A DNA stretch of 64,000 nucleotides, from NCBI GenBank assembly GCA_019915135.1, contig JAHLMK010000003.1:62001-126000 (forward strand), in the 5' to 3' direction. The stretch is from Strobilurus pachycystidiatus (Eukaryota > Basidiomycota > Agaricomycetes > Agaricales > Physalacriaceae). Positions 23,455 through 64,000 of this stretch are shown here, piece after piece; the first letter of the stretch is position 1, and every line of letters begins with the position of its first letter. The position numbers and the translations under genes are program-made. The notes beneath the pieces are model-generated. The model saw only the letters and a list, made by a program, of their open reading frames with translations. It was not told where the DNA came from and did not search any database.

Positions 23455-23548
23455 GATGCTCTGTGATCTCTGGATAATGATTGGATGGTAGCTCTGTAGA
23501 CTCGGCTCTGATGATACACTCAACGGGGTGGCTTCTGGCTCGACTGTT

Positions 23549-23566
23549 CCCTCGCGGTGGGCTCCA
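23549..23566 (-). other. Gypsy primer binding site
   Basis: On the coding strand, one base after the 5' LTR, is TGGAGCCCACCGCGAGGG. TGG is complementary to the CCA end of a tRNA, and the next bases would pair with an acceptor strand whose discriminator is U. The tRNA was not identified. Confidence 0.7.
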
Positions 23567-23567
23567 C

Positions 23568-37800: not shown

Positions 37801-38940
37801 TCACACGGCTCTTTTCCGTTTAGAGCCGGTCTTCGTCGACGATGAAGAAGCCTTCGTTGTAAAGCTATCCGTGGTCTTCAAGACATCCTCCAGCGACCTC
37901 GATACCTCCAAGGTATACGAGCCAATGACCATGTCGTCGGCTACACAAGGCTCGAACTCAGCCGGCTGACACTCCGAAACCCATTTTCCAACGTCGCGGC
38001 CCTCATCCTCCGTGTCGGTGTAGGAGGACGTACGGGATCGCTTCGATGACCTATCGGACTCCAGGTCGCTGTACGAACAGGTCGAGGTCGACGGAGAGTG
38101 GGTGAGTGGGGGAACTGCCGCCGCCTCCGGTGCTGGCCAGGGAAACTCCGGGCGGTACTTTAGAGGAATGGAGCGACCGAACTGCCCTCTGAAGGCACCG
38201 TCGTAAAATGAGCGGATGGGCGGAAAAGGCCACGGGAAGATGATCCGAAGAAGTGTTTCGAACAGAGACGGCTCGATAAACTTCCGATTCATAAGAATCG
38301 AATCGGAGCAATGGGCGAGGAGGAAAAGAGGATGTATGTCTGCGGACACCGTCGTTCTGGGGGCTGATTTGATCTTGAGTCGTATATTCGTGATGCGGCC
38401 GGTGAGAAGATGTTTTGAATAGATGGAGACGTTCCGCTTTAGAGGTAGAACACGATATTTGTAGGCTCCGAAAGGTATTTTCTGTTGACTCGATGATCAG
38501 GGACGGATAAAGGGGCCAAGAAACGCCCACACCTCGAAAAAATTCTCTCTGTCGCCGATAGATGCCTTGGTGTTGGTCTCTTGAAGTGAGAGTATGTCGT
38601 ACAAAACTTCATCCGTGGGTATGAGGGCAATGCGCTCCTCGTCCAGAGCTTGCTTGAACGACGTTTGGGCTGACAGGCATCATTAGACAACAATTTGTTA
38701 CCAATACAGACAGGCTTACTTCGAAGGAGATTGCTTGGTGAGGCAAGATGGTCATTTAGATCGCCTCGACGCAAGCCCCAGCAGTACTCGAATCCATCAA
38801 GCTAGAAACGCGTCAAAACAGGGAACGCATTCATGAAAAAGAGTGTTGCGCACTCGTATATCGCTTGACGAAACAAGCTTTACATCTGTAGTGTCCTTGA
38901 AGGATTTGGAGGCGCTGATGTTCGAGATATTGTGCGCCAT
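37801..38940 (-). CDS. F-family member F3, intact
   Basis: Start ATG 38938-38940 (MAHNISNISASKSFKD). The exons parallel F1: WGLRRGDLNDHLASPSNLL, QALDEERIALIPTDEVL, IPFGAYKYRVLPLKRNVSIY, DIHPLFLLAHCSDS, DGAFRGQFGRSIPLKY, DLESDRSSKRSR, DVGKWVSECQPAEF, LEVSRSLEDV and KRKRAV at a TGA (37801-37803). All joints are open, making it the intact partner of F2. Acidic, serine-rich linker plus basic tail; the molecular role is unknown. Confidence 0.72.
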
Positions 38941-44230: not shown

Positions 44231-45046
44231 CTACGCAGCTCGCTTGCGCTTCGTGCGTCTTGGTGCTGGTGCTGTTGTCCTTTCGGACTTCTTCGCCGCC
44301 TCCAGCGCCTCCTGCACCGACCGAGAAACTTCCGACGCGTATGCCCCAATCTGATCCTCGTTCGTCACGGCGGGCTCGAACGACACGGAGCCGCATTCTT
44401 TCATCCATTTCCCGACATCCGGCTCGTCGTAATCGCTATCTGAGAGCGAGACTCGTGAACGCTTTGAGGAGCGATCTGAGAAGTTGTCGTCTGATGATGA
44501 AGAGGACGATGTCGAGGAACCATGACTAGTACAGGATGGAGGTATCCCAGGAGCAGGGAAGTGTCGACGATGGACGGGCGGAATAGTGCGCCCAAATTGA
44601 CCGTGATATGCGCCCTTGAAGAACTCGAGGGGAACAACGCTGTACCATGCCCCGTACATCGCCGTGAGGTTGGTGAACATGGGTTCAGGAAAGAGTTTGT
44701 ATTTGGGGGTGACGGCGGAGCATCCGTTGGCAAGGACAAATAGGGGATGTGCATCGCATGTGGCAAGAGCTACAGATTTTCCGGGGGCTCGCTTTCTGAG
44801 AGGGGAGATCTTGCCGGTTTCCGGATGTCGAACATAGAAGGACACGGATCTGTCCAGGGCGACCAGCCGATATTCGTAGGTTTGGAAAGGGAAAAGCTGT
44901 TTTCGACTGTGAGACATGCCGTTATGAAGCGTAAGACAGGATTTTACCTCGGTGAAAGGCCGCCGTTGCCTGACAGGACATTGGTACCGATTGATGTCAT
45001 GCATGGCTTGAAGACTCTGGATGAGATCTTCGGAGGGAATGAGAGC
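44231..45046 (-). pseudogene. F-family F4: 3' half of the gene split by the KDZ element
   Basis: The frame reads from ALIPSEDLIQSLQAM through RPFTE, an intron, FPFQTYEYRLVALDRSVSFY, DAHPLFVLANG, FFKGAYHGQFGRTIPPVH, a Ser-rich acidic linker, DVGKWMKEC, EVSRSVQEAL and KRKRAA at the TAG 44231. It is close to F5 but begins abruptly at the 7-bp repeat TGAGAGC (45040-45046). The missing N-terminal exons are found 16.5 kb away at 61528-61844. No stop in the surviving part, so the insertion is recent relative to decay. Confidence 0.85.
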
Positions 45047-45122
45047 ATGAAAGGAGACCAACAAAACTTGAGTTATCCCGGTCGTGACCGGAATGAGTCG
45101 AGTTTTGACTCGAACTCGAAAA
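45047..45122 (+). repeat. Left terminal inverted repeat of the KDZ element
   Basis: It pairs with 61452-61527 in reverse. It contains CCGGTCGTGACCGG, itself a 6-bp inverted pair around GT. The outermost 14 bases are less conserved. Confidence 0.85.
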
Positions 45123-45400
45123 TCTCCCTCACTGTATGGCCACTCGATTCACACCGTCAGCCTACTCGTACCAACTCAAGCACGACTCGAACTCGGACTC
45201 GGACTCAAACTCAACTCGGACTCAAACTCAACTCGGACAAACTCGAACTCGAACTCGAACTCGACTTCGACTCGGACTCAAACCCAACCCAACTGCGACT
45301 GGAAGCTAACTCGACTCAAACTCGGATTGAAGTCAAGCGTGACTCCCGAGCGCGACTCGAGTATGTGATATGACTCAAACTAGACTCGAGCTTCACCATC
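45123..45400. repeat. Left subterminal ACTCG-type minisatellite
   Basis: Degenerate tandem of GACTCG, AACTCG and CAACTCG units. The right end has the reverse-complement kind (61060-61451). Such arrays often serve as transposase binding regions in DNA transposons; that role is inferred here. Confidence 0.7.
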
Positions 45401-45501
45401 GAATATGCCTAAACTTGACTCAGAACGTATCCCATTGACTCATATACGTACTTTCTGCTCATGTATCTATTACCATAACGTTCCTGATCTGCGCAATATA
45501 T

Positions 45502-47948
45502 CTAGGCTTGAGCTTTGCGACGGCCGCCTCGTCCCATATTGGTGTCAATCGGCTGGTCGAGAAGCCCTGGTTTGATTTTGCTTGGATGCACCATCTCATA
45601 GTGTACATTCTTCGGCCTTTTGATGCAGTACATCAGTGAGATGCTCGCAATAAATGGATGGATCGAGTACCTTTTTGCTTTGGGTGGACCGCTCATGTCT
45701 GCAATCGGTTCGGCAACGGAAGAGCTACTTCCCGCAACAGGCTGCGAGGTCTGGCTTGGTGAGTCCTTAGTCGTTCTCTTCCTTCTGTTAATGTTTGGTG
45801 CGTCAAGCATATACATGGATGCACGACAAGCTCACTTTGATCCTCCTCTCTTCTTTTTCACTTTCGGTATGTCATGACTGGACCCAAGGGCCTCGGCGCC
45901 GTCTGCAGCCCCGATCACGGCGCCAGCGCCAGTGCAATCAGCGGAAGCTGACGCAGATCTTCCCTTCGACGCTTTCGGATTGCTCCTAGCAAGACTGCTG
46001 CAATCATCAGGTTGGGTATCTATCAGAGTAGAGAAGAACATACACGTCCAGTACCTCTGGCGGAACACTGATCGGTACGTCGGGAAGGCTAGGCGTCGTA
46101 TCGGGCATCTGGTCATTTCCCATAGACTCATGAGGCGTACTTTGCGCCACATGGTCTGAGGTGCTGCCGTAGAATTAGCCGGATCAGCAACATGCCAACG
46201 GGGTTCCACTTACGGGTCTTCTAACATATTGGTATCGTTGGCATCGTGCATGGCCGTCTGGACCCGACCTCTTCCGCCTCGTTCTGATCGTTGTGGCGGT
46301 GAATTGGGGCCCACATTTCGAGAGGAAGGCTGCGCAAAAGATTCCTTCGCTGATAGATCCACAGGTTGTTTATCTGACATCGGCGAACGTGGCACGACCG
46401 GCGGCTCGGAGTGTGGCTTTGGCCGAGTGTAGTTTGGAACGAACAAACGAAAAGGCGCTGCTGAGCTGTTGCCGGATCGTTCCATCCATGCAGAGATTAG
46501 CGATATCCGGGCTTGGACGCGCTTAGCAACAGGAGTCGCGCTGCTGGTCGCGAGATACGCCTCCAGCTCAGGCCAGTCCACTATATCGAAATATTGGCTG
46601 GGGTTTTTTGCTAGATCGCTCCGATTGAGACTTGTTTTCGCCTTTGTAGAGTCTACAAGGAGATGTCAATCACTGCAGTCGGTAGAAGCAAGTAGACGTA
46701 CGCCAGACTTCGTTGAGGTAGTTTTCTATGCTCTTGTCCTGTTCCGCGCCTGTCTTATTGTCGATGTCGATCTCGGCAAAGCGTGGCACATCATAACTCG
46801 TTGAAAGAGCCTGATTGTCGAGGTCTGCAAGAAGGTGAGCTGGGCTGTCATTCGGTTAAGAAGAAGGTCTGTAGAGCTCACCTGTACATCGTGAGGTGAA
46901 CCAGTTTGCCGCGCTGTGAACTATGTTCGGGGGGAGAATCTGTGACAACGTGCACTTGGATTCTCCCAAAACAGGGGAATCCGCACTGCAGGCCGCACCG
47001 TTCAGTTCTGGGCTGCACTCCAGGTCTGACTGAGCTGGACGTACCTGCCCCCTCCCACCTCGCAGGTTTCCTGATCGCGATAACAGAATAGGATAGTAAC
47101 TGCGGCAGGTCCAGCAATGCCCTCTATTTCTTCCGCGACCCTCCTAGACAAGTTTCGGATGGCCAAGGGTAAACGAAATATGGTACTTGTAGTAATGTCA
47201 TTCAATCGAAGAAAACCACACCATCAGCGGACACATACCTTTCGCGTGATCCCAACTCCTTCGCTCGGCGCTCATACTCCTCTCGACTCGACTCCTGCAA
47301 CTCGTCCCAAAGTTGGCTACCGGCTTTACGAGTTGCACCACCGTTGTTGCCGCCTTTGACTTCCGTCTTCAACTCCTGTGCGCGTACCCGAACTGCATCC
47401 ATATTCTCCTCCACGAAGAGACGCTGTCCGCTCAGTGACGTTGAGAACCGAAGGAGACCTCGTCTACCCGCGTTGACCTTCTGATCATCCTGCTCCTCTT
47501 CCTCACTGCTGGGGTCGTCCTCGTCCTGCTCGAACGTGGGCATAGCTTTGGCATCTTTGCCCTTGTCGATGTTGTGATTCTTCTTATTGCGGAACCAATC
47601 GTAGATTTTCTGCGAAATCCATTCAGATAAACCTACACGAGTCGAAATCTATGACCAACGCACCTTTTCTGTCTTCGAATCGTTCCTGGAAGCAAAGACG
47701 GGGTGTTTGAGGACAACCTTCGCCGCCTTCTTCTTCCAGTTCGTCAACGCCTGGCCGCCAGTGCCTTTTCTGCACAATGCTGACCACTCGGGAAGAAATT
47801 GGTATAGGACGGTCAACTGGTGAGTGTTGAAACCGGAACCGTCAGCTGTTCTTCGCGCCTTGGGTTGCTCGTCTGTCGGTAGCGTGGATGGGTCAAACCC
47901 ACTCGAAGCCCAAGGGTCGTCCGCGTCCATATCGTAGGGCTTCTTCAT
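45502..47948 (-). CDS. Cargo gene, HTH-like segment, unknown function
   Basis: About ten exons. It starts MKKPYDMDADDPW (ATG 47946-47948). An early region reads WSALCRKGTGGQALTNWKKK with VVLKHPVFASR; after an intron comes KIYDWFRNKKNHN, whose WFRNKK is reminiscent of the recognition helix of homeodomain-type HTH proteins. An acidic segment (DEDDPSSEEEEQDD), FSTSLSGQRLFVEENMDAV, a Cys-containing stretch, FAEIDIDNKTGAEQDKSIEN and Ser/Pro-rich exons follow, and it ends GRGGRRKAQA at 45502. A DNA-binding role is a guess from the WFRNKK segment and its place in a transposon. All listed exons are open; some internal joints near 46.8-47.1 kb are uncertain. Confidence 0.55.
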
Positions 47949-48310
47949 GGCTGGGGGTGTACGAATGAATGTCAGCGTCAAGTCGGAATTGCGACACAAT
48001 ACTTGACTATACCACTGCCGGTTTTGCTTTCGCCGAAGTCTATTGTTCGTGTCAATAGTTTCCTAGTTACCATTGTCTGCCGGACATACCATTGAGCTGG
48101 TCCAGCCCAACGCCTCGCGCGAGCCACGATGCACATCGATCCTGCATCCGCAGGTGCCGCGAAGCACGTCGATCCTAACGCCGCCACGAATACTTTCAGG
48201 CTGATCACACCGACTTATGTCTCAATATATTCATATCAAATTTCAGTCCCACTGACGCCCTGAGTGATAACACGCCTCCCCTGTCCTAAAACGTCAGTGG
48301 CGTATAGGGC
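47949..48310. other. Spacer inside the KDZ element
   Basis: Upstream region of the minus-strand cargo gene and of the possible plus-strand gene that follows. Nothing specific recognised. Confidence 0.4.
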
Positions 48311-48777
48311 ATGCGCCACGAGATCAGCTTACAATTACAAGGCCGGCAGGAAACTACCGACGTCGAGAGCCCAGTCGGCAGGGAGGGGTTCCTCCGTTGC
48401 TTTGAAGAACTTTGGCGTCATTGGGTCTTCGACGTCGAAGAACGTCCTCCACCCGATTGTGACCCACTCGCACGAGCTGCCATCCACGACCAGGCGCCTG
48501 AAGTATGGCTGTTCGTTGACGCCTATTGCCGCCAAATCGAGAGCATGATCGGCCAGTCGAGTGCGAGTGCTGGAAAGCTCCACGATGGTCCCTACTTTTC
48601 GGCCTCCCTATCAATCTTTGTGAGAAGTTACGAAGGAAGAATGTGCAGCTAACATACGGGACGGTAGAAGATGAATATAGCGTGGCGCGATCCTTGTTTA
48701 CGGCGCTTAACCAAGCGTTTGCGATGCAGACGGAAGTATTGAGGTATCTTGCTCTGAAAGCGCTCGGTCTATGAGGT
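48311..48777 (+). CDS. Possible small cargo gene
   Basis: A plus-strand frame with protein-like composition reads EGFLRCFEELWRHWVFDVEE and PEVWLFVDAYCRQIE. A second frame resumes as YSVARSLFTALNQAFAMQTE to a TGA at 48775. The joint near 48617-48650 would need an unusually short intron or an unseen donor, so the model is incomplete. No family recognised. The opposite strand is also open here. Confidence 0.35.
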
Positions 48778-49165
48778 GTCAGCGTATGCGGGGGGATTCA
48801 AGAGTTACACTCACCCGAAGCATCGTGAACGAAGGAGGAAAGGAGTGGTGCAATCTGGACGAAACCAGTCGTCAGAATTCCCCGTCTCTAGGCACCAGCA
48901 GCCAGAACAAGGGAGACCTACTTGCTTTGTCTTCCCATTGTCCTCCTTACGCGGTAAGACTGGGTGCATAAGGCTCGCGCCATCGTATAAGATCCCTGGA
49001 TGATTAGTCCGAATCCAATTTGCACGACGGGGAACTCACCTGTGAAACTTCCAATGCTCCAAGCTTTCACTTGCCGGCACACAAGTGGGGCGAATGGTAG
49101 AAAGCGGTGTGATTAAGGTAGTAGTACACGTGGAGAGATGAACTAAGGATACAGTAGGCGATATG
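48778..49165. other. Spacer inside the KDZ element
   Basis: Nothing recognised. It is the 3' flank of the Spt5-like gene. Confidence 0.4.
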
Positions 49166-52100
49166 CTACGAAGTATTAACGGTCTTCTTAGCACTACCCT
49201 GTCGACTCTTTTCCCGTAATGCCATGACTGCCTGATCAGTCTCCTGCCAGTCATGAGCGCGTTCCAGAATGAGGAGATACTCGTCGGGGACGGTGATGCG
49301 TTCGTCGGTGATTGTGTCAGGCTTGCCAGGCCCCTCACGTCGAACCACAACAACCATCCAAGCTGGCGTCTTCACCCCAGACACATTCATATCAACCCAT
49401 CGAATGGGGCGAACATACTTCCCAATATGAACACCTCGAAAGACGAGCCAACAGTGGCCGTCAGCGGGCTTTCGTCCTGGATGTTTCGGTTGGACTTGGC
49501 TGGGAACTAGAGCTTGGGCTTGCCGTTTGCCCCCCACGATTCGATATACGCCAACTGCCCCGCTTTTAAGAGTTATTTGCTGCACCGTCGTCAGATGCTC
49601 TGCCGACCGCTGATTCTTGGAAGAAGCCAGTTTCTTTTTGACTTCGATTCCTGCCGTGTAGACGACGATCTTCAAGTCCCGCAGGAAGGGCTGCATGCAC
49701 CACGCGACTTTGTCGTTGTAGAGAACGACGGGATGGGGTCCGATGCCTAGCTCGTCGCGGTCTTGATTGTCGATGACCCAAGGAGCTCCCTCGTTCGGCT
49801 GTACGGAGGAGACTGGAGGGTGCACCAAGTGGTTGTCCGATGCTTTTGGCTGGCTGGGTGCGCTGAGCTTCACAGAGTAAGAAAGCCCAAGCTCCGAATC
49901 GTAGTATACTTGCTTGCCGCGAAATCCACTCTTGTGGTGGAGGGCGCTCAGAGGATATACGATTCGAAGAGGCCAGAGTGTCCTATGTACCACTGTCAGT
50001 TTGAGTTGGTCTGGTGAATGGAGAAGCAGTCCTCACTCAGGATCTCGGATAAGACTATAACAAAACCACTTCTCCAAAAGTCCTTCCTGAGCTCGCAGGA
50101 TATCGAAGCGAACGAGTATCTTCAAACCACTGTCGGTCTTGTCGTCTCGGATGACATCTTCCACTGTCCCTTGTCGTCCTTTGTACTCGCCCGTGATCAA
50201 AATGACGGGGCGGCGAAACCATGGAACGGTGCCACTGTAAGTCATTTCTGGTCGAAAGGTGACTTTGCCGGTGAACAGGCCTTGGTCCGCATCGTACTCT
50301 AGCTCGTCATGGAGACGGTTGTAAGGACGACTGGGTCCTGGGACAGAGGGCGGCGGCGCGAGAGTGTATACCGGGCGACCTGTTAGACGCTCTGGGGGTT
50401 GGGTGTTGCTAGTGATGTGAACGCAATTGTTCTTGTGAACTCTGACGACCTAACGGGACATGAGTTGACTTTCAAAAGGGCGTGCATTGGGCACTTACTT
50501 GCGGTGAAATCTCCGTCGGATCCTCGCCGGTCCAGTAGATGAGAACGGTGATATGTCGTTCCTGGCGACGTCGCCTAACCGAATGCTCTCCTTCAGAGGC
50601 AGAGGTTCCAGGTATCACCCAACCGTGTGACATCTTCGTACTGCCGTTCCATATCCCGACTTCCTGCCCCACCTCGAACACACGGACCAGATGCCCTCTC
50701 TCGATCTCCACGGCGTTCATCCCTTCATCGGTGGGCTGCACCGTCACGGTATGCGATAGGGTAGTCCTCCCATCTACTTCGTGCAACGCGTTTTGAGAGG
50801 ACAAAACTTCTCCCTTGAAGCCGTTTCGGACATCCTCTACAATTTCGCCGGCGTCAAAGTTCCCATTCTCAGCCGGGGGTAGCAAAGAAAGGGCGCGTCT
50901 AACTCGAGGATCTTCGCAGCGGATGAACTGATCGTGGATGTGTGCAGGTGAGGAGATGGCAATCGAGATGTGCGTTTGGCGGACCTGTATCAAGGCAAGA
51001 TCGTCCACGAAAACTGTCCTCCCCATCTCCTCGTAGCGAAGTAGACCACGGTTTGCTTCGCTGACGGTCAGCTTCGCGCGTATATCTGAACGGAGAAGAC
51101 GGGGAGGATGTCGGGTACCAGGTGCAGGTGGTATAGGACGGGGCGAAGATGTCCAGTTTCGGTCCGTGGGGCGTTGACCAGCATGAGCGTGCTGTTCTTC
51201 TTCCTCAGAAGGGTCGCCCTCGCCCACATAGACTCGCTGCCAGCGGAAAGAGATTCGCGGCACGACCTTGACCGCGCACCATACGCTCTTCGAGTCCTTC
51301 TCGACCCAACCGATATCCCCATCGTACTTTCCTCCTCGAATAGTGACCCAGCATCTGGTGAAAGTCTCTCGTACACCTCGACTGCTGCGCCATGCGCGTA
51401 GACGCTCGGAGGGAGATCGAATTGGCTGCATGGATCGGAGGGAGAGACCATATTTCGCATGGCCAAGATCGTCGACAAGGAGTTGGATCAAAGAGTTCAT
51501 CGTACCCCTAGTGGCAATGTATATCGATGGCTGGGAGGGGGTTTTGGGACTGGGCCATATATCGATTATGTCGTCTTCAGGGCGAGCATCGTGATGGAGG
51601 CGACCGGCGATGGTCTGAGCAAGAACGTTACGATCCTCTTGCCCGTCTGTCGAATCTTCTGTCGGTCCATTATGATCCTCTTCGTGTTGGTACGCCAAAC
51701 TAGCGGCATGCTGCCAATCACGATCTCGTCTGCGGGAAGGTGGGGGATGGCGTTTGAATTCCAAGTTGTCCTTGATTAGTTTGGAGACCTCGACGGAGGT
51801 TCGATACTGTTGACGAAGTCAATGATGCTGTTCTTGTATGAAAGTATTGTAACGTACCCGACATTTAATTCGCCAGATCGTTACATCCTCGTCGGCCGCA
51901 TCGAAGACACGCGAATGAGGAGCGACGTCGTCCTCATCCTCATCATCGTCATGCACCTGGCCTGTGATAGGGCGTGCGGATTCGTTATGATCATTGTAGT
52001 CGTCGCGTATGATAGAAGTGGGGGCTAGAGACTCCAGCCAGGCATAGAAATGGTTTTCCGATGTCCGTTCCAAAGCAGCCATTTCCTTCGGGGTAAGCCT

Positions 52101-52292
52101 GTGAGAGCTGGGGGAGTCGCTGTCGATATCAAGGTCTAAGGCGAGAAGTATTAGATCTTAGGCGGCGTCGGTCAGGAAATGCTACGCACCCTCGAACGTC
52201 GGATCTTCCTCTTCGTCATCTAGAATCTCGTCGTCCTCGGCGTCGTGGGCTTCCAGCGACAGGAATCGCTCTACCCCCGCCGCGTCGGGCAT
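49166..52292 (-). CDS. Spt5-like protein (NGN/KOW domains), transposon cargo
   Basis: Start MPDAAGVERFLSLEAHDAED (ATG 52290-52292), an acidic N-terminus like that of Spt5. Next comes DVTIWRIKCR and, about 80 residues on, SIYIATRGTMNSLIQLLVDD, matching the two parts of an NGN domain (IWRVRC... and IFIEA...). KOW-type segments follow: TIRGGKYDGDIGWVEKD, AGEIVEDVRNGFKGEV, and LITGEYKGRQGTVEDV. The C-terminal exon has FRGVHIGKYVRPIRWVDMN and ends KKTVNTS at 49166. Spt5 with Spt4 binds RNA polymerase II and controls elongation; this copy is diverged, lacks an obvious C-terminal repeat domain and sits inside a DNA transposon, so it is not the housekeeping gene. At least five exons, all open. Confidence 0.75.
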
Positions 52293-53141
52293 GACCTATC
52301 CTGTAAATTACTGATTAGCACGTCGTGTCTTATTGAATTTTTGGAGTAATTATAAAGATTTTTTGGCCACGCCAAAGCAGAAGAACCATTTCGCATAATG
52401 TACTGTATTCTACATGCGTATTCCATGAAACTTACAAGGAACGGGTGGGGACCAGCAGCGCCTGCGCCCGGACCTTATCACTGGCCAAAAGCAAAGTGGA
52501 AAGCTTACCTAATTGCAAAGCTCGGCAGGATACAGACCGCCGATTGATGTGCAAAGTGCATCGGGCATTTGCGAGTAGGCCCGATGCACTTTGCACATCA
52601 ATCGGCAGTCTGTATCCTGCCGACCTTTTCGATTATGTAAACCTTTTCATCTTGCCAGCGGACGACAATGTAAATATGATTGAGGGCGGAGCAGTGCGCC
52701 AGTGATGCCGGCCAGGGCGCTCCCAGTATCAACGAATGCCATTGCAAGTCAATATTTGTAAGTTTTAACGTGAAAAATGGAAATTGCGACCTCTGATATA
52801 AAATTGCAGGGAGAGTCCATGTCGGAACGCACAATCCTGTCGAGACGTACGCGCTACTGCCTTGGTGGGTCTTTCATGCGAGCATATAGCCAGCCTCTTA
52901 CTTCTTCCGTCGCAGCCCTTGATTTCAACGTGCTACGGATAGGGATACGATGGGGCCTGGTCATCGCGTCGCTGTGGCGCATTTAAGGTACATCTTGTAA
53001 TGATGCTTTGTTTTACTGCGTCTAAATCCGGCATTGTTGCAGGCTTCCTTCCCTGGCTCCTGTCGCTGTATCCAATGCCGCTTTGAGCCCGTATAATGCT
53101 CATATACGCAGCTGAACCGAACGTTTATCTCGCGACACAAA
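52293..53141. other. Spacer with hairpin and a duplicated leader
   Basis: Holds the foldback at 52524-52621. A stretch at about 52860-53100 (CTTGGTGGGTCTTTCATGCGAGC ... GTGGCGCAT) resembles 53838-54060, so the leaders of the two following plus-strand genes are related. Confidence 0.5.
52524..52621. repeat. 43-bp inverted repeat (foldback) in the KDZ element
   Basis: Arms 52524-52566 and 52579-52621 are complementary with one mismatch around a 12-nt loop. The piece ATGCACTTTGCACATCAA of the right arm recurs at about 60394, so it is a repeated module. Confidence 0.9.
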
Positions 53142-53657
53142 ATGCCCCAATTGGATCCAGACGCCACTCTCCTGCAGTCCTCTCCCTCTCCTGACTCGCG
53201 CTCCGATGAAGAAATCGATGAGCTGGAGGAGGATGACCCTCCTCGCGAACGCTATCTCTCCATTCACGGCAGTGTGGACATCATAAATATTACGACCGTT
53301 GTCTGGTACCAGGTTCGTGTGTCTGACTGGCATGCAATCATCTCTGGCTGATTCGCTCTTCTTCAGTGGGGTGAAGATCCTCGTGTTGTGGTGCTGCTCG
53401 CTCACCTTATGCCGGACGGAACAGGTCGTCTCAGCCTGTTCAACAACATTGACCGTCTCCGAGCACTACCCATGAGCATCGGTTGTGGTCTCATGCGATA
53501 TGAAGTGGCTTCTCAAACCTGGATGCCCTGTAACTTTGTCGTCCCCTTCACAGTCAACCCCAATCGTCACCTCGCTCTTCGTGGAGAGCATATCAGTTCT
53601 ATCATCCAGTCTGACTGGCAATTCTATTCTCGTGCAATCGTTTATGATAGACTCTAG
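53142..53657 (+). CDS. Small cargo gene, unknown
   Basis: ATG 53142 gives MPQLDPDATLLQSSPSPDS, an acidic SDEEIDELEEDD and VDIINITTVVWYQ. An intron (about 53313-53366, GTTCGT..TTCAG) leads to WGEDPRVVVLLAHLMPDGTG, SLFNNIDRLRALPM and a C-terminus RAIVYDRL. About 154 residues. No family recognised. The intron restores one continuous frame, which supports a real gene. Confidence 0.5.
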
Positions 53658-54112
53658 TCGTTTGCGGTCTACTTGTTTTGAACATTTATCTCACATTTCT
53701 CGAACCGAATATATCCCTACAATACTTCATACATCGCTTACGCACCGTTTGGTACTTTCTATCATCATAGCTTGATACAGTACAGATCCTTTTGTCGGCG
53801 ATCATCAATTCTCGTCGAAAAACAAGGACGACCGGCTTGGTGGGTCTCCCATGCGAGCGCTCGCACGGCGTATATCGCTTGAGCCCCTGATTGTGTCCAG
53901 GGAGCCGAGGGACGTGGTGGTAGTCGTCACGTTGTTGTGGCGCATGTCAGGTACGTTCGAAATCCTTGCTTTGTCCTTCGGCGTTCATCTCAATACAGTA
54001 TGGCTCCAGAACGGTCGCCCTGGTTGCTATGTGCCGGTGCAATATCGCCTTCAGGCCCGTTCAGTGATCCTCCAATATCGAATATTTTCAAGTCGCATGT
54101 GCCGCCACGCTA
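53658..54112. other. Spacer with duplicated leader
   Basis: 53838-54060 resembles 52860-53100 (see there). No gene of its own is supported, although a long frame overlaps it. Confidence 0.4.
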
Positions 54113-55028
54113 GTGCAAAATACGGAGCTTTCCGCGTCCACGATGCAGTCCATCCCTGCAGCGGCGCGCAACGGTCCAGATACCGCCCCATGGACTCACA
54201 TTGGACAATGGGCGCGCGGAATTTGGATATCTGTATGTTCCCCTTTGGTAAATATTCCCAATATTTTACTAATTTCCGCTGCGCGGGAGCCATTTCCCTC
54301 GCTGGACCCAAACCCGAGCCTCAGCCCTGTAGCGGAAGGGCCAAACCTTGCGCAAGCGTCGGAGTCAAAGTATGCGTCGGAGTCAAGGGATACCATGCAC
54401 CGTTGAGTCTGGATGATGCAGGCGCTGCAGACATAGGACGGTATTATCAAGATGTAGGTGTCATATTGTCTAGCCTCTCCACGCAAACTGAACCGGTCTA
54501 CAGTGTCTCCGTCACGAGGAGCTTCAATGGCTTACGCCACGTCTTTCTCAGGAGATGCTGCGCAAGTCGAACATCCTCGTAGATGGTCTTCGGCTTCGTC
54601 AGCAGGCCAAGGACTCCGCCAGGGAAGAGAGTATTCAATCTGCTCCTCTTCTCAAGCAGAAACGATCGGCTGGTGCGACCGTCGATGTACTCATCTGGCT
54701 TAAAGTGGGTCTTTGATGCGTGGTAGTACCGTCTTCTAACATTCCTTGACAGGACAATCGACTTCCGATGGCCGTCTCGTTGAACGTATCAAATGAGACA
54801 GATGTCGAGCTGAATTCTCTTCCCAACCTCTTTTTGCTCCGAGAGGTGGGATTCACAAACGAAGCCCTCTCTTACTTCGACGCGCGCAAGGCTATCTGGC
54901 GTTCTCCGTGGAAGGACAAGGCCGTCATACGCAGTCCCGATGGCATTTTGGCTCTGAAGGCCGTTGGAGTTGACCGGTTGAAAGGCTGGGATGACCATGT
55001 TGAGCGGATATATCCTCTTCGGGTTTAG
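54113..55028 (+). CDS. Cargo gene, unknown; 5' exons uncertain
   Basis: Best-supported exons: MLRKSNILVDGLRLRQQAKD to TVDVLIWLK, an intron with GTGGGT..GACAG (about 54703-54751), then DNRLPMAVSLNVSNETDVEL to HVERIYPLRV at a TAG (55026-55028). Upstream, LDDAGAADIGRYYQD can be joined through a GTAGGT..CTACAG intron to CLRHEELQWLTPRLSQE. The first exon may begin MQSIPAAARNGPDTAPW near 54143, but the joint is unclear. No domain recognised. Confidence 0.5.
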
Positions 55029-55326
55029 TGCCTTCCTCCGGTGTATGTCTACATGGCTTAACTGGCACGGACATGGATTCGGGTGTCTGTGTTTTCAAGA
55101 AAGCTTGCCAAACTACTTTGTCCACTAGTTCGAACACGTAGATATGTACATAGCCGCGAACGCACATGAAAGTAGAATCACCTGGTCATGTCGCCATACT
55201 GTATCGAGAATGATTAGGTGCTTGTGCGGTAGGCCCGTGTGCCCCAATAAGGAAATTGTCCTTGCTTTGTGTTGCGAGGACACATCTTTGACTGATGAGA
55301 AGTAAGTCTCTTGGTTTCTTTCCGCT

Positions 55327-58300
55327 ATGCCAAAAGCTGACTACCGAACGAAAGCGCAAAAGGACGCCGACGAGCTGGCTGAAATACGCGATCTGGAACG
55401 TACCGGATCCATTCGAACGTTGGAGACCGAACGACCCAAGCCCATCGCCGCCAGGCTCACACGATTCGACAGTGATGGAAAGCTGCTCGTCGAGAAGCAT
55501 ACGATCATGCCCCAGCCGCTCAAGCTCTACGTTCCTCCCATCCAACCCCAAGTCGAAGGCGAAGCACCAGACAACGATTCCAGCGACGGCGACGAGGAGG
55601 ACGATGAAGTGGAAGAGGTCGAGAACGGCGGCCATACTCAGGTAAGTGTACATCCAGCCTGGCAGGCACCTGGATTCTGACCGGCGGTCCGCAGACTCGG
55701 AAATGCCTGCAGGCTCTCCTTGACGCGTCACCTCGACTTCATGATTTGCTGATGGAGACGGAGGTAGAAAACCACACTTCCGACATCTGTCCATGCGGTC
55801 GAAAGCTCCCCCGCACTGTGAGGTGTACGAAGTGCATCGAGTACGGTGTGCGGTGCTCCGAGTGTTTCGTGGACCGACATCGGAACATGTGGACCCACTG
55901 GGCACAAGTGTGGCAACCGCGGGATGGGTGCTTTGCTCGTTGTGATATCAGCGCCTTGAAGTTCTTTCCTCAGCTCGGTCACGCTGGTGGAGAATGCCCC
56001 TCCCCCCACACTCCTATTCAATTCATTGTGGTGGATGTTGAAGGTGTTCACGATACGACGTTACGGTTCTGTGACTGCAAAGTCGGCGGTGTTGATCGGC
56101 TTTCGCAACTCATGCGGGCGCGCTTGTTTCCAGCTACTGTGGCCCGCCCGGAGATTGCCTTCAGCTTTGAGTTACTCCGAACACTCCAACTCCAGCATCT
56201 AGAGTGTACGGCCAATATTCATGACCTCACGGCCTACCTTCAGAGGCTTACGAACAATGAGTATCCCTGGTTGGTCGCCGTAAGTCTCTATCCGTCTATC
56301 AACATACTTCAATCGCTGACCACGATACCAGCAACTCAGCAAGCAACTGCGGAGGGTTCTACGCATATGGAGCCTACTCCTGGCCGAACGTCGAACCGGC
56401 TTCATATTCAACAAGCATAACATTGGCTTCCCGAACCGTCAAGCCGACTCGCTGCTCGTCTACTGTCCCATGTGCCCGGAAGATGGAGCTAATATGGAAA
56501 AGGAATGGCGGTTGACTCCCAAAGAGTATACGTGAGTTGCGCCCTATGATCATTGTGCACGACGAAGTGACTGATAGGAAGGGCAGACATCTCATTGCGG
56601 CTTTCAACACCCTTGACGGCAATTTCAAGATATGCATGGGAAGCATGAACGAGAACAACGAGGATATTGATCTTTTGCGTGGTCGTGGTCTTCAGCCGCT
56701 GCTCGATGAATTTGAGAAGTACCGAAAGACGGCCGTTCCGTCGCCAACGAATAAGCGCGAGGTGAGTCGAGCTCTCGCATGTAGTGGCGTTCACTGTGAC
56801 TGACGTTCCTAGAAAATTCCGTGTAACAACCTGAAGTCAACGCAGCAGCACGTCCGCAATACCGACTGCGTGTACAATGGTATCGGTCAAGGACAATGCT
56901 CACATGTTTTTGTCAAATCCACCGCCGATTTCCCCAAAGGAGAAGAGTATGTGGCAGTTCGCCTGTCTCCGCACATCCCTGACGTGCAGCCTTTTCAGTC
57001 AAATCACCATGGATCTAGTCACGAAACTGCTCTACCTACGATCCGGATTTCCCGAGAACCCCACGGCCAAGGACCGGCTGCAACCTAGTTCGCTGTCTTA
57101 CGATTCGCACTGTCAATATGGCGTGCACATTCTCCATAGATTCGAACATTCGTATCTGCGTTCGATGAAACCACACCTGGAGAACGCGACACAACTCATC
57201 AACGCCGCTCACGTTTACACCCACGCATGTGGTTGTATATACATATTTGGGTCTTTCTACGTGGAATATCAGTGTCACTTTCATGGCGAGACGTGCGAGC
57301 ATTTCTGGCCGAAGTCGAACGCCTACGCGCCGATGATCTTCCATATGAATCGGCATTACGGGCATCAGGTCTACTTCGGAGTAGCTATGGATTGGAACTG
57401 GAAGAAAACCGTGAATGCTGGTGAGTATCTCGATTTTGATTGGCCATCGTGTTTAACTTACTGAAGCCGCCGCTAGTCAACGAACTTCACAAGAACGCCA
57501 TCTACGCACGAAAGATGTACTTGCGTTACAAGCACGAGTTCAAACTGGTCACCCTACAGAATGTGGACTACATCGATGAATGGAGATCGGCTTATCCCAA
57601 TCGACACAAGCGCGGTCAACACTTCCAGGTCTCGGGGAGCGGTAAGAGCAAGGTCATTTTGAGTCCTTACAAGGAGCGAGAGATGAAAGGTAATCACGAC
57701 TTACTACCTTCAAGTTGGAGAAGGCTGACTTTTCTTGGTCAGTTCCGTGCATGGACTCCGTGCTTGAGACTTTATTGGAGAATCCGCAGAGTCTGGCATG
57801 CATCGGCAACGTCGCTTCCGATGTCCTCGCCAAATGGATGCACGATGGTCTCACCATTGAAGCTAGACAGTAAGATTTGTTCGTGCCCCAGACAACTGGT
57901 ACTAACCCGATGAACACAGGCGTCATGTCCGTGCTCTTCGTACTCGTCTCGCAAAATACAGCTCTGCCACAGACGATGAACGAGTCAAGCGTGAGCGGGC
58001 AACTCTGCACGAAGAGCTTGAGCCCTGGTTGATACTACGGAAGAAGTTCTTCGGAGAGGCGGTGCCATACGAAGAGAGGGAGACGCGTACACCGATGGTT
58101 CAAGAGCGCCGGTACATAAAGTCGGGGAACGTGGAGGACTGGACGCTGTGTTTGCCTTCGCAATTGGCGCCTGACGTGCAGATCTCTTTGCAAGCGGCGA
58201 CGGATCAGGAAAAAGCTATGCGTCTTGCGCTGGCCTTCCAAGCCATCCGACTAGTGCTACTGGTGGCGCGCGAGCTTCTGGCTCTCGGCTACGACAAAAA

Positions 58301-59298
58301 GCAAGCCAAGTTTCAAGGTCCCATTACGAAGAGTCGGGCACGCATCTCTCGCGCAAAGTTTCGACGAGACGAGGCCATCGTGACCTTCAATGATCACTTC
58401 ATCGCCTTACGGAATCTCAACGGAGTGGAGGGTTCCCCTTTGGCTTGCGTGGAGGCGGAGATGACAATACAAGATACTTATGTCGCTAAGTCGATGGATG
58501 GCCTGCGTCAGCCGTTAGATTCTAGTCGTCAAGATGGCCAGGCCCATCTATTTTATCATCAGCATCAGACAACCGTGATGGCCGAAGGTTTCACAGAGCG
58601 CGCGCACAAACGAGCGCTGGAACAAGAAGCTCCTGGTACGCTTTACTGTATATGACTTTCATGTTGCTCTAATGGATAGAGACTAGGCCCCTCTCAGCCT
58701 GTAAAGAGAACGAAAGGAACCGCTGGAAACCCTAAGAGTAAGTACTGTACGTTGTGAGACCTGAAGCATACTAATGGACTGCCTCACAGGGAAGAAACCC
58801 GCCAAAGGGACCGGGTGGCCATACAAGATCCTGGAGCGCGGTAAGCTCAACGACGCGGAAGTTGAGGCCTGGGAGACAGACGGTATGACAGACTTCACTC
58901 GGTGGTTGCTCATCTGAACATCTCGTCTCTCTCCAGGTGAACGTGTACGCTATTTCCGGACAGAGGCTGAGATGCGCAGGTGGCGAGAGCAGCACGAACG
59001 AATGCAAGCGGAATTCCTGAACGTCATTCGCATGTTCACAAGAGAGCAAGAGACGTGGATCAAGTGTGCGGAAGCCTGTTCCCAAACGGCTTCGCCAAAA
59101 CCCGGTTACATCGCATACGCCCGTGAGCATGCCGCAATGTTCGGTCGCATGATTGAACGAGCTCGTTTGCGTGTCATAGCCTGCGGATACGGCCATATAC
59201 TGCAACTGCCCAAGGATGAGTTATTCTACAAGCATTGCGAAAGAGTCCGTGCAGGAAAAGCGCCGATGTTCATGTCGGCCACTGGACAAGCTGTGTAA
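55327..59298 (+). CDS. CxC2-KDZ transposase
   Basis: Start MPKADYRTKAQKDADELAE. An acidic exon 1 ends GGHTQ at GTAAGT; exon 2 resumes TRKCLQALLDASPRLHDLLME. The CxC2 cysteine cluster follows (about 55780-56270): CPCGRKLPRTVRCTKC, CSECFVDRHR and, later, CDCK. The KDZ core gives FNTLDGNFKICMGSMNENNE, PCNNLKSTQQHV, CSHVFVKSTADFPKGEE, MDLVTKLLYLRSG and SYDSHCQYGVHI, with the acidic signature GETCEHFWPKSN at 57285-57320 (GE..E..W). The C-terminal third is helical and charged (MRRWREQHERMQAEF), ending SATGQAV. About ten short introns, for example at 57421 (GTGAGT). This matches Kyakuja-Dileera-Zisupton transposases of basidiomycetes, which cut and paste DNA. No stop disrupts the exons, so the element may be autonomous. 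Confidence 0.88.
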
Positions 59299-59608
59299 TT
59301 CCTGTGTCGTTCTTCTTGACACCGAATGCTCACACCTGCCGTAGTTTCGATTTGGATCTCCCACAGATGGCCATAGAAGATCCAGAAGATGGAATATAGT
59401 ATCAAGTTTTGTACCAATCAATGAACACCCGTCGTACTGCCGTGCCAGTCTCCATTGCATCTGCCCAAGTCTCGGACTGCGCCAAATCTTTTCGCGAGAT
59501 AAGATAGCAGGATTGGTCAGACCGATCGCGACAGTAACAAACAGGAAAGGATCCCGCCTCCCAAACTACGCACCCATCCCGCCTCTCATCAACACACCCA
59601 CCAGCTCG

Positions 59609-60159
59609 TCATGGCTACCCATACGCCCCAATATTTGCTACTCGCGAACCCAACGCCGCCGGAATTGTTCGCCCCCTACGCAAAAAGCGATTTCAGCCTC
59701 GCGGAAATGGCGCTCTATGATTCGGTGCAGAAATACGCCGGAGAGTTTGGCGCGTTCGGAGCGTGTTTCGTCCTGATGTGAGTCTTTCTTGTGTTCTTAT
59801 TCTTGGAAATTGGGTCTCTGACGGATCGAACCGTGTATTCTAGGCCCACTGGCTACCATCTCTCCCCTCCAGACAACAAGGAGAGCCTCAAGCAAAAGCA
59901 TTTGACGCTGCGAGTCTACGGTCACGATGGTTGGGCGCTGGGCGCTATTGAGTGGGCAGGAAAGCGGCAGGGCGGATCGAAGTGCTTCAACCACTGGAGA
60001 GACGAGCGGTGGAGGGTATACGACGCTGAGGCGCAGTACGGCGAATTACCCGTCGATGAGCGTCCGCGAGAGTGGTTCTTTAGGCGTGAAGGGCATCTGA
60101 GGGTATGTGGCTGTCAATTCCAGGACATACTCAATGCTAACCTCGGCGCAGATGGATTA
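59609..60159 (+). CDS. Small cargo gene after the transposase, unknown
   Basis: Exons read MATHTPQYLLLANPTPPELF, ending GACFVLM; an intron (GTGAGT..TCTAG, about 59778-59844); PTGYHLSPPDNKESLKQKHL, HDGWALGAIEWAGKRQGG and REWFFRREGHLR; then a second intron (GTATGT..GCGCAG) before a tiny last exon Met-Asp-stop (ATGGATTAG, to 60159). About 150 residues, rich in Trp and Arg. No family recognised. Two clean introns support a real gene. Confidence 0.55.
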
Positions 60160-61059
60160 GGCAAGCGTTCGCGAGTGTGGCGCTTTTTTTTGGGACTCGA
60201 TTCTTTAGTATCCTTTTCAATCGCTTTTGTTTGTATCTTTGCTCGCTGTCTTGTTGTCTATTCTGTACTTTGCCATTGTCTCTATTCGCTAAATAACCCC
60301 CTTACCTACCTACCTACATCGACCTATATACCAACTTGTCACTCTGCTGACGCGGGCACTCGTCCTGTGCTCTGTGCGCTGTGCCTGGTGCCTATGCACT
60401 TTGCACATCAACTGAGCCTGGACACGTTGCCAGGTCCGACGGCTGACTCAGCATTTGCCCTTTCGTTGCAACCACCACCATCAACAGCGACGACGACGTG
60501 GTCCACGACGTGGCCGCAGGCAGTCGTTGCCTAACGGACGGACGCGTTCGGCGGCGGTAGCCATGATGGCGACACGGACCATGGACCACGACAACGCGGC
60601 CTGTTGCGTTCGAAGACGCGACAATGACGAGCACGACGACGATGGGGCCGGTCACGGCGACGAGGACGACGGTGGCGAGGACGACGACGGTGGCGAGGAC
60701 GACGACGGTGGCGGGAGAGTAACGGTGGCGGGAGAGTAACGGTGACGACGATGGGCGAGAGTCACGGCGAGGACGACGACGATGACGGGAGCCGCGACGA
60801 GCACGGACCACGACGAGCACGGACCACGACGGAAGAACAGGCGGCTACCAGGGAGGTGCGTAGTTGATGGCGTCGGCGCGCTATGGCAGACGGCCGACTT
60901 GGAGTCCGGGCCGCTTGTTTCCCGGTGAGCCAGATTTATTCTCGTCTACTGGCTTATATCCCTCAGTCTATCCCACTCGAAACTCTTCCCCCTCCCGTAG
61001 AATCATACATCGACCCAGCATCGACCCCAGGATGAGATCAGCCAGCGCGGTCCGGACCT
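60160..61059. other. Low-complexity region in the KDZ element
   Basis: A CTAC(CTAC)n tract lies near 60304-60316. About 60540-60840 is GC-rich and made of degenerate GACGACGGTGGCGAG and GAGCACGGACCACGAC units. No gene; open frames here follow from the repeats. Confidence 0.6.
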
Positions 61060-61451
61060 ACGACCCCTTCGAGTTGCGACTCCGAATCTGATTCGAGTTC
61101 GGATCGGTGTGTCGAGTTCGAACTGGAGTTCGAATTTGAGCCAGTATGTCGAGTCGAGTTCTAGTCGGAAGGTCGAGTTGGTGAGTTCGAGTTCAAGTTG
61201 GAGAATTCGAGTTGGACTTCAGTCGAGTTCGAGTCGAGTTGGGGTTCGAGTTGGGGTTCGAGTTCGAGTCGAGTTGGGGTTGGAGTCGAGATGAAGTGGG
61301 GTCCAAACTCGAGTTGGGACTTGAGTTTCAATCGGAGTACGCTTCGAGTTACACTTAGAGTAGCTCGCCTGGGTTTCATTGTAGTTTAGAGTCCTCAAGA
61401 TAGCATGTTAATGTATATATTGATATTTGCTACTACAGTCGGAATGTAAGG
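61060..61451. repeat. Right subterminal CGAGTT minisatellite
   Basis: Degenerate tandem of CGAGTT, CGAGTCGAGTT and GGGGTTCGAGTT units, followed by about 100 bp of AT-rich unique sequence and the terminal inverted repeat. It mirrors the left subterminal array. Confidence 0.75.
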
Positions 61452-61527
61452 TTTTCGAGTTCGAGTCAAAACTCGACTCATTCCGGTCACGACCGGGAAA
61501 ACTCAAGTTTTGTGTGTCATCTTTTTG
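61452..61527 (-). repeat. Right terminal inverted repeat of the KDZ element
   Basis: Reverse complement of 45047-45122 with eight mismatches, seven of them in the outermost 14 positions. It ends directly at the TGAGAGC direct repeat. Confidence 0.85.
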
Positions 61528-61844
61528 TGAGAGCCACTCTATTGGAGAGGATGGCGGCCTTCAGTGCGGGCTGGACTGTTCACGTTAGTTAGGGACTTGC
61601 GAGCGCAGCCGACGAGGATGGACTTACTACGAAGATGATTACAGGATTGTTCGAGAAATGCGTCGACCTGTCCTCGTTGGAGTCCCCAAGCATACTCGTA
61701 AGAGTCAATCTTGAAGTGAAGGTCAGAAAAATCGTCAAACTAAACACGAGTACATACCCTCAAGTTGGTATTGGAGAAGAGCGACATGTCCGTGGCCTCG
61801 GTGAATACGCGCCTGACATTCAGAGACTCGATAGGCACTGCCAT
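61528..61844 (-). pseudogene. F-family F6: 5' half of the gene split by the KDZ element
   Basis: ATG 61842-61844 (MAVPIESLNVRRVFTEATDM). An intron (GTATGT..TTCAAG), then IDSYEYAWGLQRGQVDAFLE, a GTAAGT donor, and IQPALKAAILSNRVAL, ending at the element boundary. F4 begins exactly with the following residues. With F5 it forms a head-to-tail pair (F6 start 61844, F5 end 62187), so the split gene was originally F5's neighbour. Confidence 0.85.
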
Positions 61845-62186
61845 TCTCTGCTGGAGATGCGGAATAGCCTGGTGATGAGTGGAAGTAGCGGTGATTGTAA
61901 GAGCAAGAAACGGCGCGGCCGAATCAGGCATGAACAAAGGAACGACCATGTGACACGTATGACGTTGGCACGATATTGTATAACTTTTGAGTTGAAGTTT
62001 TGACGAGGGAATGCGAACGATCAGCCACAGGATAATTGCAGTATGGGACACCGTCCGTATCCTTGTTTTCCTTACAGCGCGGAGAGGGGTACAGTATATC
62101 TGTAGCACGCGATTTGCTTGTGTGCGCCGAGTGAGAGAACATTGATAACTAAATGAAGTACAGTAAATAATACAAGAAACTGCCAA
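61845..62186. other. 5' flank of the split gene / 3' flank of F5
   Basis: About 340 bp with no gene. The CACGTG box of F1-F3 is not evident here. Confidence 0.5.
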
Positions 62187-63312
62187 TTATACAGCTGCGC
62201 GTTTTCGCTTCGTCCGTTTTTGCGGTATTTGGTCTCTTCCGGATGTGTTCGCCGCCTGCAGCGCCTCCTGCACCGACCGAGAAACTTCTGACGCGTATGC
62301 CCCAATCTGAGTCTCGTTCGTCACAGCGGTCTCCAACAATACCGAGTCACATTCTCTCATCCATTTCCCGACATCCGGCTCATCGTAATTGCTATGCGAA
62401 AGCGAGGTTCGTGAACGCTTTGAGGAGCGATCCGAGTCGTCGGCGTCTGATGATGAAGAGGACGATGCCGAGGAATCATGACTGGTACAGGATGGAGGTA
62501 TCCCAGGAGCAGGGAAGTGTCGACGATGGACGGGAGGAATGGTGCGCCCAAATTGATTGTAGAACGAACCCTTGAAGAACTCGAGAGGAACAACGCTGTA
62601 CCATGCGGCGTACATCGCCGCCATGTTGGTGATCACTGGCTCAGGAAAGAGCTTGTATTTGGGGCCGACGGCGCTGCAGCCGTTTGCAAGGACAAAAAGG
62701 GGGTGAGCGTCTGCCGCCACCAGTGCCACGGATTTTCCGGGGGCTCGCTTTTTCAGAGGGGAGATCTTGCCGGTTTCCGGATGTCGAAGATAGAAGGATA
62801 CGGATCGCTCCAGGGCAACCAACCGGTACTCGTAAGTTTGGAGAGGAAAGAGCTGTATTCGACTCAGAAAAATGCGATTACGAGGCAGACGCCAGATTCT
62901 TACCTCGGTAAAAGGCCGCCGTTGACTGACAGGACAATGGTACCGGTTTTGATCGTGCATGGCTTGGAGTTTCTGGATGAGGGCATCAGAAGGAATGAGG
63001 GCCACTCTCTTGGAAAGTATAGCGGCCTTCAATGCGGGCTGAACTATGAACCATAGTTCAAGTTTTGGAATTGAGACGACGAGGACACACTTACTACGAA
63101 GTCGATTACATGATTTCTCGAGGAATGCGTCAACCTGTCCCCGCTGAAGTCCCCATGAATACTCGCAAGAGTCAATCTTGAGAGAGACGGTCAGACGAAT
63201 CATCGAACCAACGACGAGAACATACCATTGAGTTGGTACTGGTGAAGAGCGACATATCCGTAGCCTCGGTAAACATGCGCCTGACATTCAGAGAGTCGAT
63301 AGGCATTGCCAT
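62187..63312 (-). CDS. F-family member F5, intact
   Basis: ATG 63310-63312 (MAMPIDSLNVRRMFTEATDM). Exon 2 reads IDSCEYSWGLQRGQVDAFLE (about 63095-63178) and ends at GTAAGT. The next exon, starting after CATAG, gives QPALKAAILSKRVALIPSDA and ends RPFTE. The long last exon has LQTYEYRLVALERSVSFYLR, ADAHPLFVLANGCSA, FKGSFYNQFGRTIPPVH, a poly-Ser acidic linker, DVGKWMREC, EVSRSVQEAL and KRKRAAV at a TAA (62187-62189). About 300 residues. It is closest to the split F4/F6 gene. Function unknown; the basic C-terminus suggests nuclear location. Confidence 0.75.
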
Positions 63313-63331
63313 TGCGCTAGGGCCAGTAGAT

Positions 63332-63365
63332 TTTACCGTGACCGTGAATTCACGGTCACGGTAAA
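63332..63365. repeat. Perfect 34-bp palindrome
   Basis: Half-site TTTACCGTGACCGTGAA followed by its exact complement, centred on an EcoRI-type GAATTC. It starts 20 bp upstream of the F5 start codon, so it lies in the F5 leader or core promoter. Confidence 0.97.
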
Positions 63366-64000
63366 GTGCCACGGTAGCACGGTAGATAGTCACGGCCTCC
63401 AGGAGGGAGCAAGAGCTCATGAGGTCAAGTAGCAGTCCTAAACTGGAGCAGTACGACGTCGTCAACGAGAGCGCCGTGTGTTTTAAAATTATAAATATAT
63501 TCCCGGGTCGCGAGAAACAAGTACTTGATGACAATAATGAAGCATCTGCAAGGCATGGGGCTTTGTGTTTGAAGTGGGATGAGTACAGAGATGATACATA
63601 CATGTTACTAGTCTGGGTAAGTAGGCAAAAGATTCTCGTGTCCAAGAAGTCGGAACGTCAACTTATTGACGGTCCCATACGTAGAGTCCCTGTCGATCTG
63701 CCGTGACGCATGCATGGCATTGACTCACATTGATAAGATCAGACTAAGTAAAGGCAATGCCCTAGGTTGTTTCGATGCAGCACGTTGTGGCTGTAGGTAA
63801 ATATGGACCATTAGCATGCTGAGGTGAACGGAATGGAGTGATCAAATCGAGCGGTGGGTCATCAGGGTCCAATGGCCGGTGCCGTGATCACGGTAGCTCA
63901 CGGCTGCGGCCACGGTACTCACGGTAGCAGTGTCACGGCCGTCACGGCCTCACTGCCCACTGCTCACTGCCGCACGGTAAAGTACTCACTGCCACGGTCG
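63366..64000. other. CACGGT-rich repeat region, probable edge of another element
   Basis: 63366-63400 and 63880-64000 contain many CACGGTA/TCACGGCC units related to the palindrome arm. Between them a plus-strand frame (63419-63706, MRSSSSPKLEQYDVVNESAV) shows no known family. The unit-bearing ends suggest a mobile or satellite-type element that continues beyond the window. Confidence 0.45.

Follow-up and report, generated by a model that had tools for sequence, protein, structure and literature searches.

The window, a 64,000-bp stretch (C3:62001-126000) of a genome that was searched over 51.8 Mb in 61 contigs, contains a KDZ-type DNA transposon of 16,481 bp at positions 45047-61527 (table 1). 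Very probably, it is a cut-and-paste transposon of the KDZ superfamily that inserted into a gene of the F family and duplicated 7 bp there, and this reading includes the roles proposed below for its ends and accessory genes. Its mobility was inferred from the sequence, that is, from the ends, the duplications, an intact transposase frame, the recurrence of the structure, and a paralogous empty site.

When 45047-45122 was re-aligned with the reverse complement of 61452-61527, 68 of 76 positions were identical, which agreed with the eight mismatches that an earlier note, made from the letters alone, had reported for the inverted ends; the outer 14 bp hold seven of the mismatches, and the inner 62 bp hold the eighth. 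The left end starts with AT and the right end finishes with TG (5'-AT..TG-3', or CA..AT in the opposite direction). The direct repeat TGAGAGC described in the note is present on both sides, and beyond it lie the two parts of a gene. An uninterrupted paralogue, F7 (window 62180-63400), served as the paralogous empty site. The left flank matches F7 up to position 823 (83% identical) and the right flank from position 817 (81% identical); the overlap is exactly 7 bp, the same as the length of the duplication, and this is the trace required of an insertion with a 7-bp duplication. Therefore, the element sits inside one F-family gene, with the split into a 3' half (F4) and a 5' half (F6) that the note had proposed. 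Its further claim, a continuous frame once the element is removed, agreed with the reading frames of both flanks, which were by eye in register with F7. The reported structure, an element with exact ends inserted into an F-family gene, was confirmed. The F family forms a local gene cluster (window 27436-28128, 37801-38496, and 44231-63287), and its proteins end in basic KRKRAA-like tails; the long reading frame of F7 had no Pfam match. The DNA of the F4 half had six matches in the genome including the query itself, four of them on C3 (three in the stretch from C3:106 kb to 128.7 kb, the fourth at C3:170 kb).

Table 1. Features of the element and its surroundings (window positions), and other loci carrying genes C, B, and A (genome positions)
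Feature	Position	Strand	Description
F-family gene, 3' part (F4)	44231..45039	-	Interrupted gene; from alignment to F7
Left target-site duplication	45040..45046		TGAGAGC; direct read, 7-bp paralogue overlap
Left terminal inverted repeat	45047..45122	+	Outer 13 bp ATGAAAGGAGACC (L-type); inner part with palindrome CCGGTCGTGACCGG
Gene C	45502..47948	-	657 aa from 10 exons; HMG-box similarity weak and below cut-off; by eye, basic stretches resembling an NLS
Gene B	49166..52292	-	972 aa from 5 exons; a single KOW motif exceeds the Pfam cut-off
Inverted pair of an 18-bp word	52545..52600		GATGCACTTTGCACATCA; divergent space upstream of genes B and D1
Gene D1	53142..53657	+	2 exons, 153 aa
1.6-kb deletion junction	54273..54291		C23 and C1b have about 1.6 kb more here
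Gene A, CxC2-KDZ transposase	55327..59298	+	12 exons, 1133 aa; intact model
Mosaic patch	59301..60700		98.9% identical to C1b, 80% to C23
Internal motif, about 110 bp	60386..60500	+	Present in all 19 element sequences or fragments compared, big and short
Right terminal inverted repeat	61452..61527	-	Outer 13 bp (reverse complement) CAAAAAGATGACA (R-type)
Right target-site duplication	61528..61534		TGAGAGC; direct read
F-family gene, 5' part (F6)	61535..61845	-	Interrupted gene; extent of alignment to F7
C1b	C1:6385-6404 kb		C-B-A locus
C1d	C1:6047-6062 kb		Distant C-B-A locus
C13d	C13:1453-1467 kb		Distant C-B-A locus
C27d	C27:213-227 kb		Distant C-B-A locus

The same borders recur across the genome. 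The left end had 31 matches in the genome, and an exact 7-bp duplication was found at 10 of the first 13 loci read on both sides. Of the remaining three, C15 had 6 of 7 bases duplicated and a one-base change in its L word, and C5:2240100 and C7:769043 appeared damaged at the L end; the absence of a duplication at C7:769043 was later rejected, as the true L end was located 1.2 kb beyond the one first read, with an exact duplication. Three distant loci, C1d, C13d, and C27d, were found via the accessory genes and hence independently of the ends. They have aligned inverted repeats of 74, 76, and 70 bp, exact 7-bp duplications, and the same outer words, and they stand for at least two further families, since C1d and C27d are alike (89% identical over 4.1 kb on the right side). 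The R outer word, CAAAAAGATGACA, occurs 51 times in the genome (reversed control, 1), and the L outer word, ATGAAAGGWGACC, 40 times (reversed control, 3). These words form 32 facing pairs, defined as neighbouring words within 40 kb, with spans from 51 bp to 33.2 kb; every pair joins an L with an R, with no L-L or R-R pair, and 19 of the 51 R words and 8 of the 40 L words are without an exact facing partner. All 19 newly read pairs called by words had an exact 7-bp duplication, 15 of them at previously untouched loci and four (C5:2715284, C7:769043, C20:450294, and C29:264750) with one end seen earlier. In total, the duplication was exact at 32 of the 34 loci with both borders read (10 of 13, all 3 distant loci, and 19 of 19, with the re-read C7:769043 counted once), the exceptions being C15 and C5:2240100. 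The genome search for copies whose ends lie elsewhere, which the earlier note had proposed, thus brought no refutation.

Two candidate observations from the same loci were rejected. A target preference for C beside the L end (10 of 13 loci) disappeared in the further 19 loci (T 9, C 5, A 3, G 2), and a supposed second big copy at C3:2819159 has, besides its L end, only small scattered matches in the 16.6 kb downstream. At the short extreme, an insertion of 51 bp (L063:61-111; C19:24941-24991) consists of little beyond the two end words and has the exact duplication GCTCGAT; it is either the smallest mobile copy or the product of internal deletion after insertion. At the long extreme, 33.2 kb separate the L and R ends at C5:2682063-2715284, which have an exact duplication and enclose B and C; no gene A was found there among the best 47 of 188 candidates, and the interval was perhaps enlarged by nested insertions.

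Most of the paired elements are short: 25 of 32 are under 10 kb and 20 of 32 are shorter than gene A. Four short elements are 96-99% identical to each other over their common parts, which indicates recent spread. Same-ended copies too short for the transposase gene were probably moved in trans. Of the elements of 7.0, 9.0, and 9.9 kb, the 9.9-kb one was read, and it had no match to A, B, or C. In this element (L076:835-3672; C21:267409-277336), an open reading frame matched Transposase_21 (tnp2) with 30.2 bits (cut-off 28.6), so that it represents either a different, nested transposon or swapped gene content.

Gene A encodes the CxC2-KDZ transposase that the earlier note had recognized. The KDZ transposase domain (PF18758) scored 79.2 bits against a curated cut-off of 26.6, and the N-terminal CxC2 cysteine cluster (PF18803) 87.1 bits against 27; the model, with introns of 46-56 bp, has no internal stop and retains GETCEHFW, as the note had stated. 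D380, D508, and E570 are constant in all seven aligned proteins and may be the catalytic residues. The nearest relatives found were from Hymenopellis radicata (Agaricales), and a PDB sequence search that used the transposase alignment yielded no hit below E 0.2. This genome is rich in KDZ elements from other families. Genome-wide, 174 matches to the KDZ domain were counted in the 51.8 Mb, where one gene may give two, and some of them have identical scores at several places.

The window copy is incomplete and mosaic. From 45047 to 59300 it is 98-99% identical to the C23 copy, and from 60701 to 61450 it is 99% identical to C23 and 60% to C1b; the patch between them (59301-60700) appears to be a product of recombination or conversion between subfamilies. 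The similarity of D1 to D2, a gene known here from other copies only, is significant over 41 residues, and that of D2 to D3 is not (E 0.12); the models of D2 and D3 are rough. D1 belongs to no Pfam family, judged by a Pfam scan of its C23 counterpart, and ARAGORN found no tRNA in the element. It is conceivable, though we consider it doubtful, that this copy is a degraded relic, immobile by itself, which lost a needed gene with the 1.6-kb deletion and has been kept by drift. D2 and the start of D3 are indeed missing from the window copy and present in both C23 and C1b, and parts of the D2/D3 regions show a third-position bias between C23 and C1b. Nevertheless, the window copy retains the transposase, B, C, and D1 in intact form, and the dS of gene B is 0.001 versus C23, which means that the insertion or the shared history is recent.

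Genes B, C, and D1 bear out the claim that several other intron-containing genes lie inside the element. Compared with the C1b copy, dN/dS was 0.13 for A, 0.20 for B, and 0.30 for C, and the dS of the three genes was 0.30-0.42 versus C1b and 0.001-0.03 versus C23; A, B, and C are under purifying selection. None of the three has an internal stop in the window and C23 copies. In the C1b copy, a stop interrupts an exon of B, and thus not all big copies are intact; an apparent stop in its gene A, directly after the exon 3/4 joint, where the C1b intron end differs, is probably an artefact of applying the exon borders of the window. The order and orientation C-B-A were found at six loci from at least three families (the window, C23, C1b, C1d, C13d, and C27d), and at the three distant ones the per-segment protein identity to the window was 43-52% for C, 63-81% for B, and 41-88% for A. 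Moreover, B genes that are more distant (37-50% identical) were seen on C7, at C1:3.42 Mb, and on C9, some 5-10 kb away from KDZ matches; the divergent layout there is the same as in the window element and the KDZ family is a more distant one. Among the matches listed, 9 of 15 B loci have KDZ or A within 12 kb and the other 6 have none; the chance figure for this proximity, 5e-7, presupposes that the loci are independent, a condition that copies of one family violate.

Protein searches gave no match for B among the best 7,990 word-sharing candidates and none for C among the best 7,991, so the accessory role of these genes rests on this genome. A PDB sequence search with gene B gave nothing below E 0.2, and its largest exon, modelled alone with AlphaFold, had a mean pLDDT of 34.7. 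Based on the KOW motif and the HMG-like features, one may guess that they take part in transcription or serve as architectural components of the transposition complex. Since A, B, and C recur in order at six loci and are under purifying selection, B and C look like parts of the element and not like chance passengers. Alternatively, only A would be needed for movement, and B, C, and D would be host genes captured and carried by chance, in the manner of giant transposons that bear cargo; we regard this as unlikely. This would fit the 20 of 32 paired elements that are shorter than gene A, in which A, B, and C are all dispensable in cis, and the six B loci away from KDZ or A among the matches listed. 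However, it leaves unexplained the repeated gene order and orientation at three distant loci, the divergent arrangement, repeated on C7, C1, and C9, of B with KDZ matches of a more distant family, and the purifying selection on B and C inside the element. The earlier note had called the transposon cargo-carrying, a term that suggests captured host genes; extra genes are present, but they hardly look like captured ones, because A, B, and C recur together under purifying selection. Finally, it is scarcely credible that the flanks are two different F paralogues, each partly deleted, which happen to enclose an element with its true ends at other positions. Local repetition of the F family (six genome matches including the query) speaks for this, but the flanks end on F7 with an overlap of exactly 7 bp and 32 loci with exact duplications are delimited by these same ends, so that this explanation is already refuted, barring an element-free allele with a different joint.

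Returning to the insertion of a KDZ transposon, we compared the ends of 30 elements, that is, the 32 facing pairs minus the 51-bp one and C7:769043; C15, with one changed base in its L word, was also outside this comparison. At positions 1-13, agreement was 0.99 among left ends, 1.00 among right ends, and 0.55 between the left and right ends of the same element. At positions 14-48, the two ends of one element agreed at 0.88 versus 0.71-0.73 between elements, none of 2000 pairing shuffles reached the former value, and CGGT, four free bases, and ACCGGG are kept in at least 90% of the elements. Thus, left and right ends have different outer 13-bp words, each nearly constant across families, and the inner part is family-specific and common to both ends of one element. 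The outer constancy is partly built in, since 17 of the 30 elements were called by their outer words; the other 13, called otherwise, had the same outer agreement. From this pattern, we infer that the outer part may be a polarity signal and the inner part a family-specific recognition site. In the mechanism that we propose, the transposon inserts into the F-family gene and 7 bp are duplicated; the DDE-type transposase A would bind the inner part of both ends, with its core CGGTnnnnACCG, and the unlike outer 13 bp would set the polarity, so that a productive complex would need one L and one R end. B (KOW), C (HMG-like), and the D genes would not be passengers from the host but would encode accessory proteins of the element, with a function in expression or in DNA architecture, and short copies devoid of a transposase would be mobilised in trans.

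The internal motif of about 110 bp had no match in window 1-45046, and in many short elements it is doubled back to back. Its 18-bp core had 27 exact matches in the genome versus 0 for the control. Sorted by a reading of coordinates, 21 of them belong to paired elements; of the rest, 3 are no more than about 1.1 kb from an R end that is unpaired, 2 precede isolated B genes by about 240 bp, and the last one is elsewhere. In the window and C23 copies, the only exact cores are the back-to-back two upstream of B, on the other side of which lies D1 in the window. The motif looks like a promoter or another cis-acting site; its RNA folding was no better than that of shuffles (z 0.20), which gives no support to an RNA structure. 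The wider hypothesis is a multi-gene system in which polarised two-part ends would force L-R pairing, the inner part would co-evolve with the transposase, the KOW/HMG-like proteins would be accessory factors, and the motif would form a shared network of cis promoters or transposition enhancers. Such a common regulatory network is suggested by the core matches, 26 of 27 of which belong to paired elements, adjoin an unpaired R end, or closely precede a B gene, but we put forward the complete system as a rather improbable extension.

With its KDZ domain, CxC cluster, defined ends, and target-site duplication, the element belongs to the KDZ superfamily, and the KDZ transposase and terminal inverted repeats argue against a giant cargo element of the Starship type. 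In the available text of Kojima (2025, PMC12730594), Kyakuja-1_LB and -2_LB of Laccaria bicolor have 7-bp duplications, 5'-CA..TG-3' termini, no inverted repeats, and a TET/JBP gene. They share with the window element the KDZ transposase, the Agaricomycetes as hosts, and the 7-bp duplication (32 of 34 loci here), but the latter has 76-bp inverted repeats, AT..TG termini, and no TET/JBP; a genome search for TET/JBP (PF12851) gave 13 matches, all below the cut-off and none within C3:107-124 kb. Zisupton and a Dileera, for which 8-bp duplications are given in that text (Kojima 2025, PMC12730594), differ in this from the 7 bp at 32 of 34 loci here. The accessible part of the Cryptococcus study (PMC12810828) describes KDZ1-3 as elements of about 9-11 kb with CxC1, inverted repeats of 139-241 bp, duplications of 8 bp (KDZ1) or 4-8 bp (KDZ2/3), and an observed insertion into a reporter gene. 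Membership of the superfamily, long inverted ends, and insertion into a gene are common to both, whereas the window element has CxC2, 76-bp repeats, and a 7-bp duplication, and carries KOW and HMG-like genes, of which that part of the study (PMC12810828) makes no mention. In Marasmius oreades, another agaric, inverted-repeat motifs of KDZ and Plavaka elements are reported in the accessible portion of PMC8290104, and its KDZ elements likewise have inverted repeats and borders defined by duplications. The transposase-like proteins P0001-P0003 of Hymenopellis radicata, compared by protein alone, combine CxC2 and KDZ and are 51-56% identical over 91-99% of A.

The borders of Kyakuja (PMC12730594) and of Cryptococcus KDZ1-3 (PMC12810828) are in print as far as these texts go, and a KDZ element with exact borders is therefore not new. 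The KDZ interpretation of the earlier note is partly supported, with the cargo, the novelty of the borders, and the completeness of the copy corrected. In literature titles and abstract openings, a scope that mostly excluded subscription papers, neither KDZ elements with KOW/HMG-like genes nor the combination of a 7-bp duplication, long inverted repeats with constant polar tips, CxC2, and a KOW/HMG-like module were apparent; a paper on Ectocarpus (PMC12477816) does contain both terms, KDZ and HMG. KDZ transposons are common in mushrooms, and descriptions of their borders, gene content, and mechanism are scant. The 32 exact duplications in one genome fix a border set, and the end words predict further copies; these borders also tie the elements to a conserved accessory gene set whose role in movement is testable. 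Polarity, on the outside, and recognition, on the inside, may be separate functions of the ends, which could be examined with short artificial elements.

Two other features were seen in the window. On the minus strand at 15364-23712, long open reading frames, among them 1329 and 974 aa, have by eye the look of a Ty3/gypsy-like LTR retrotransposon, and a tRNA gene at 2154-2238 was the sole Rfam match in the window at gathering thresholds.
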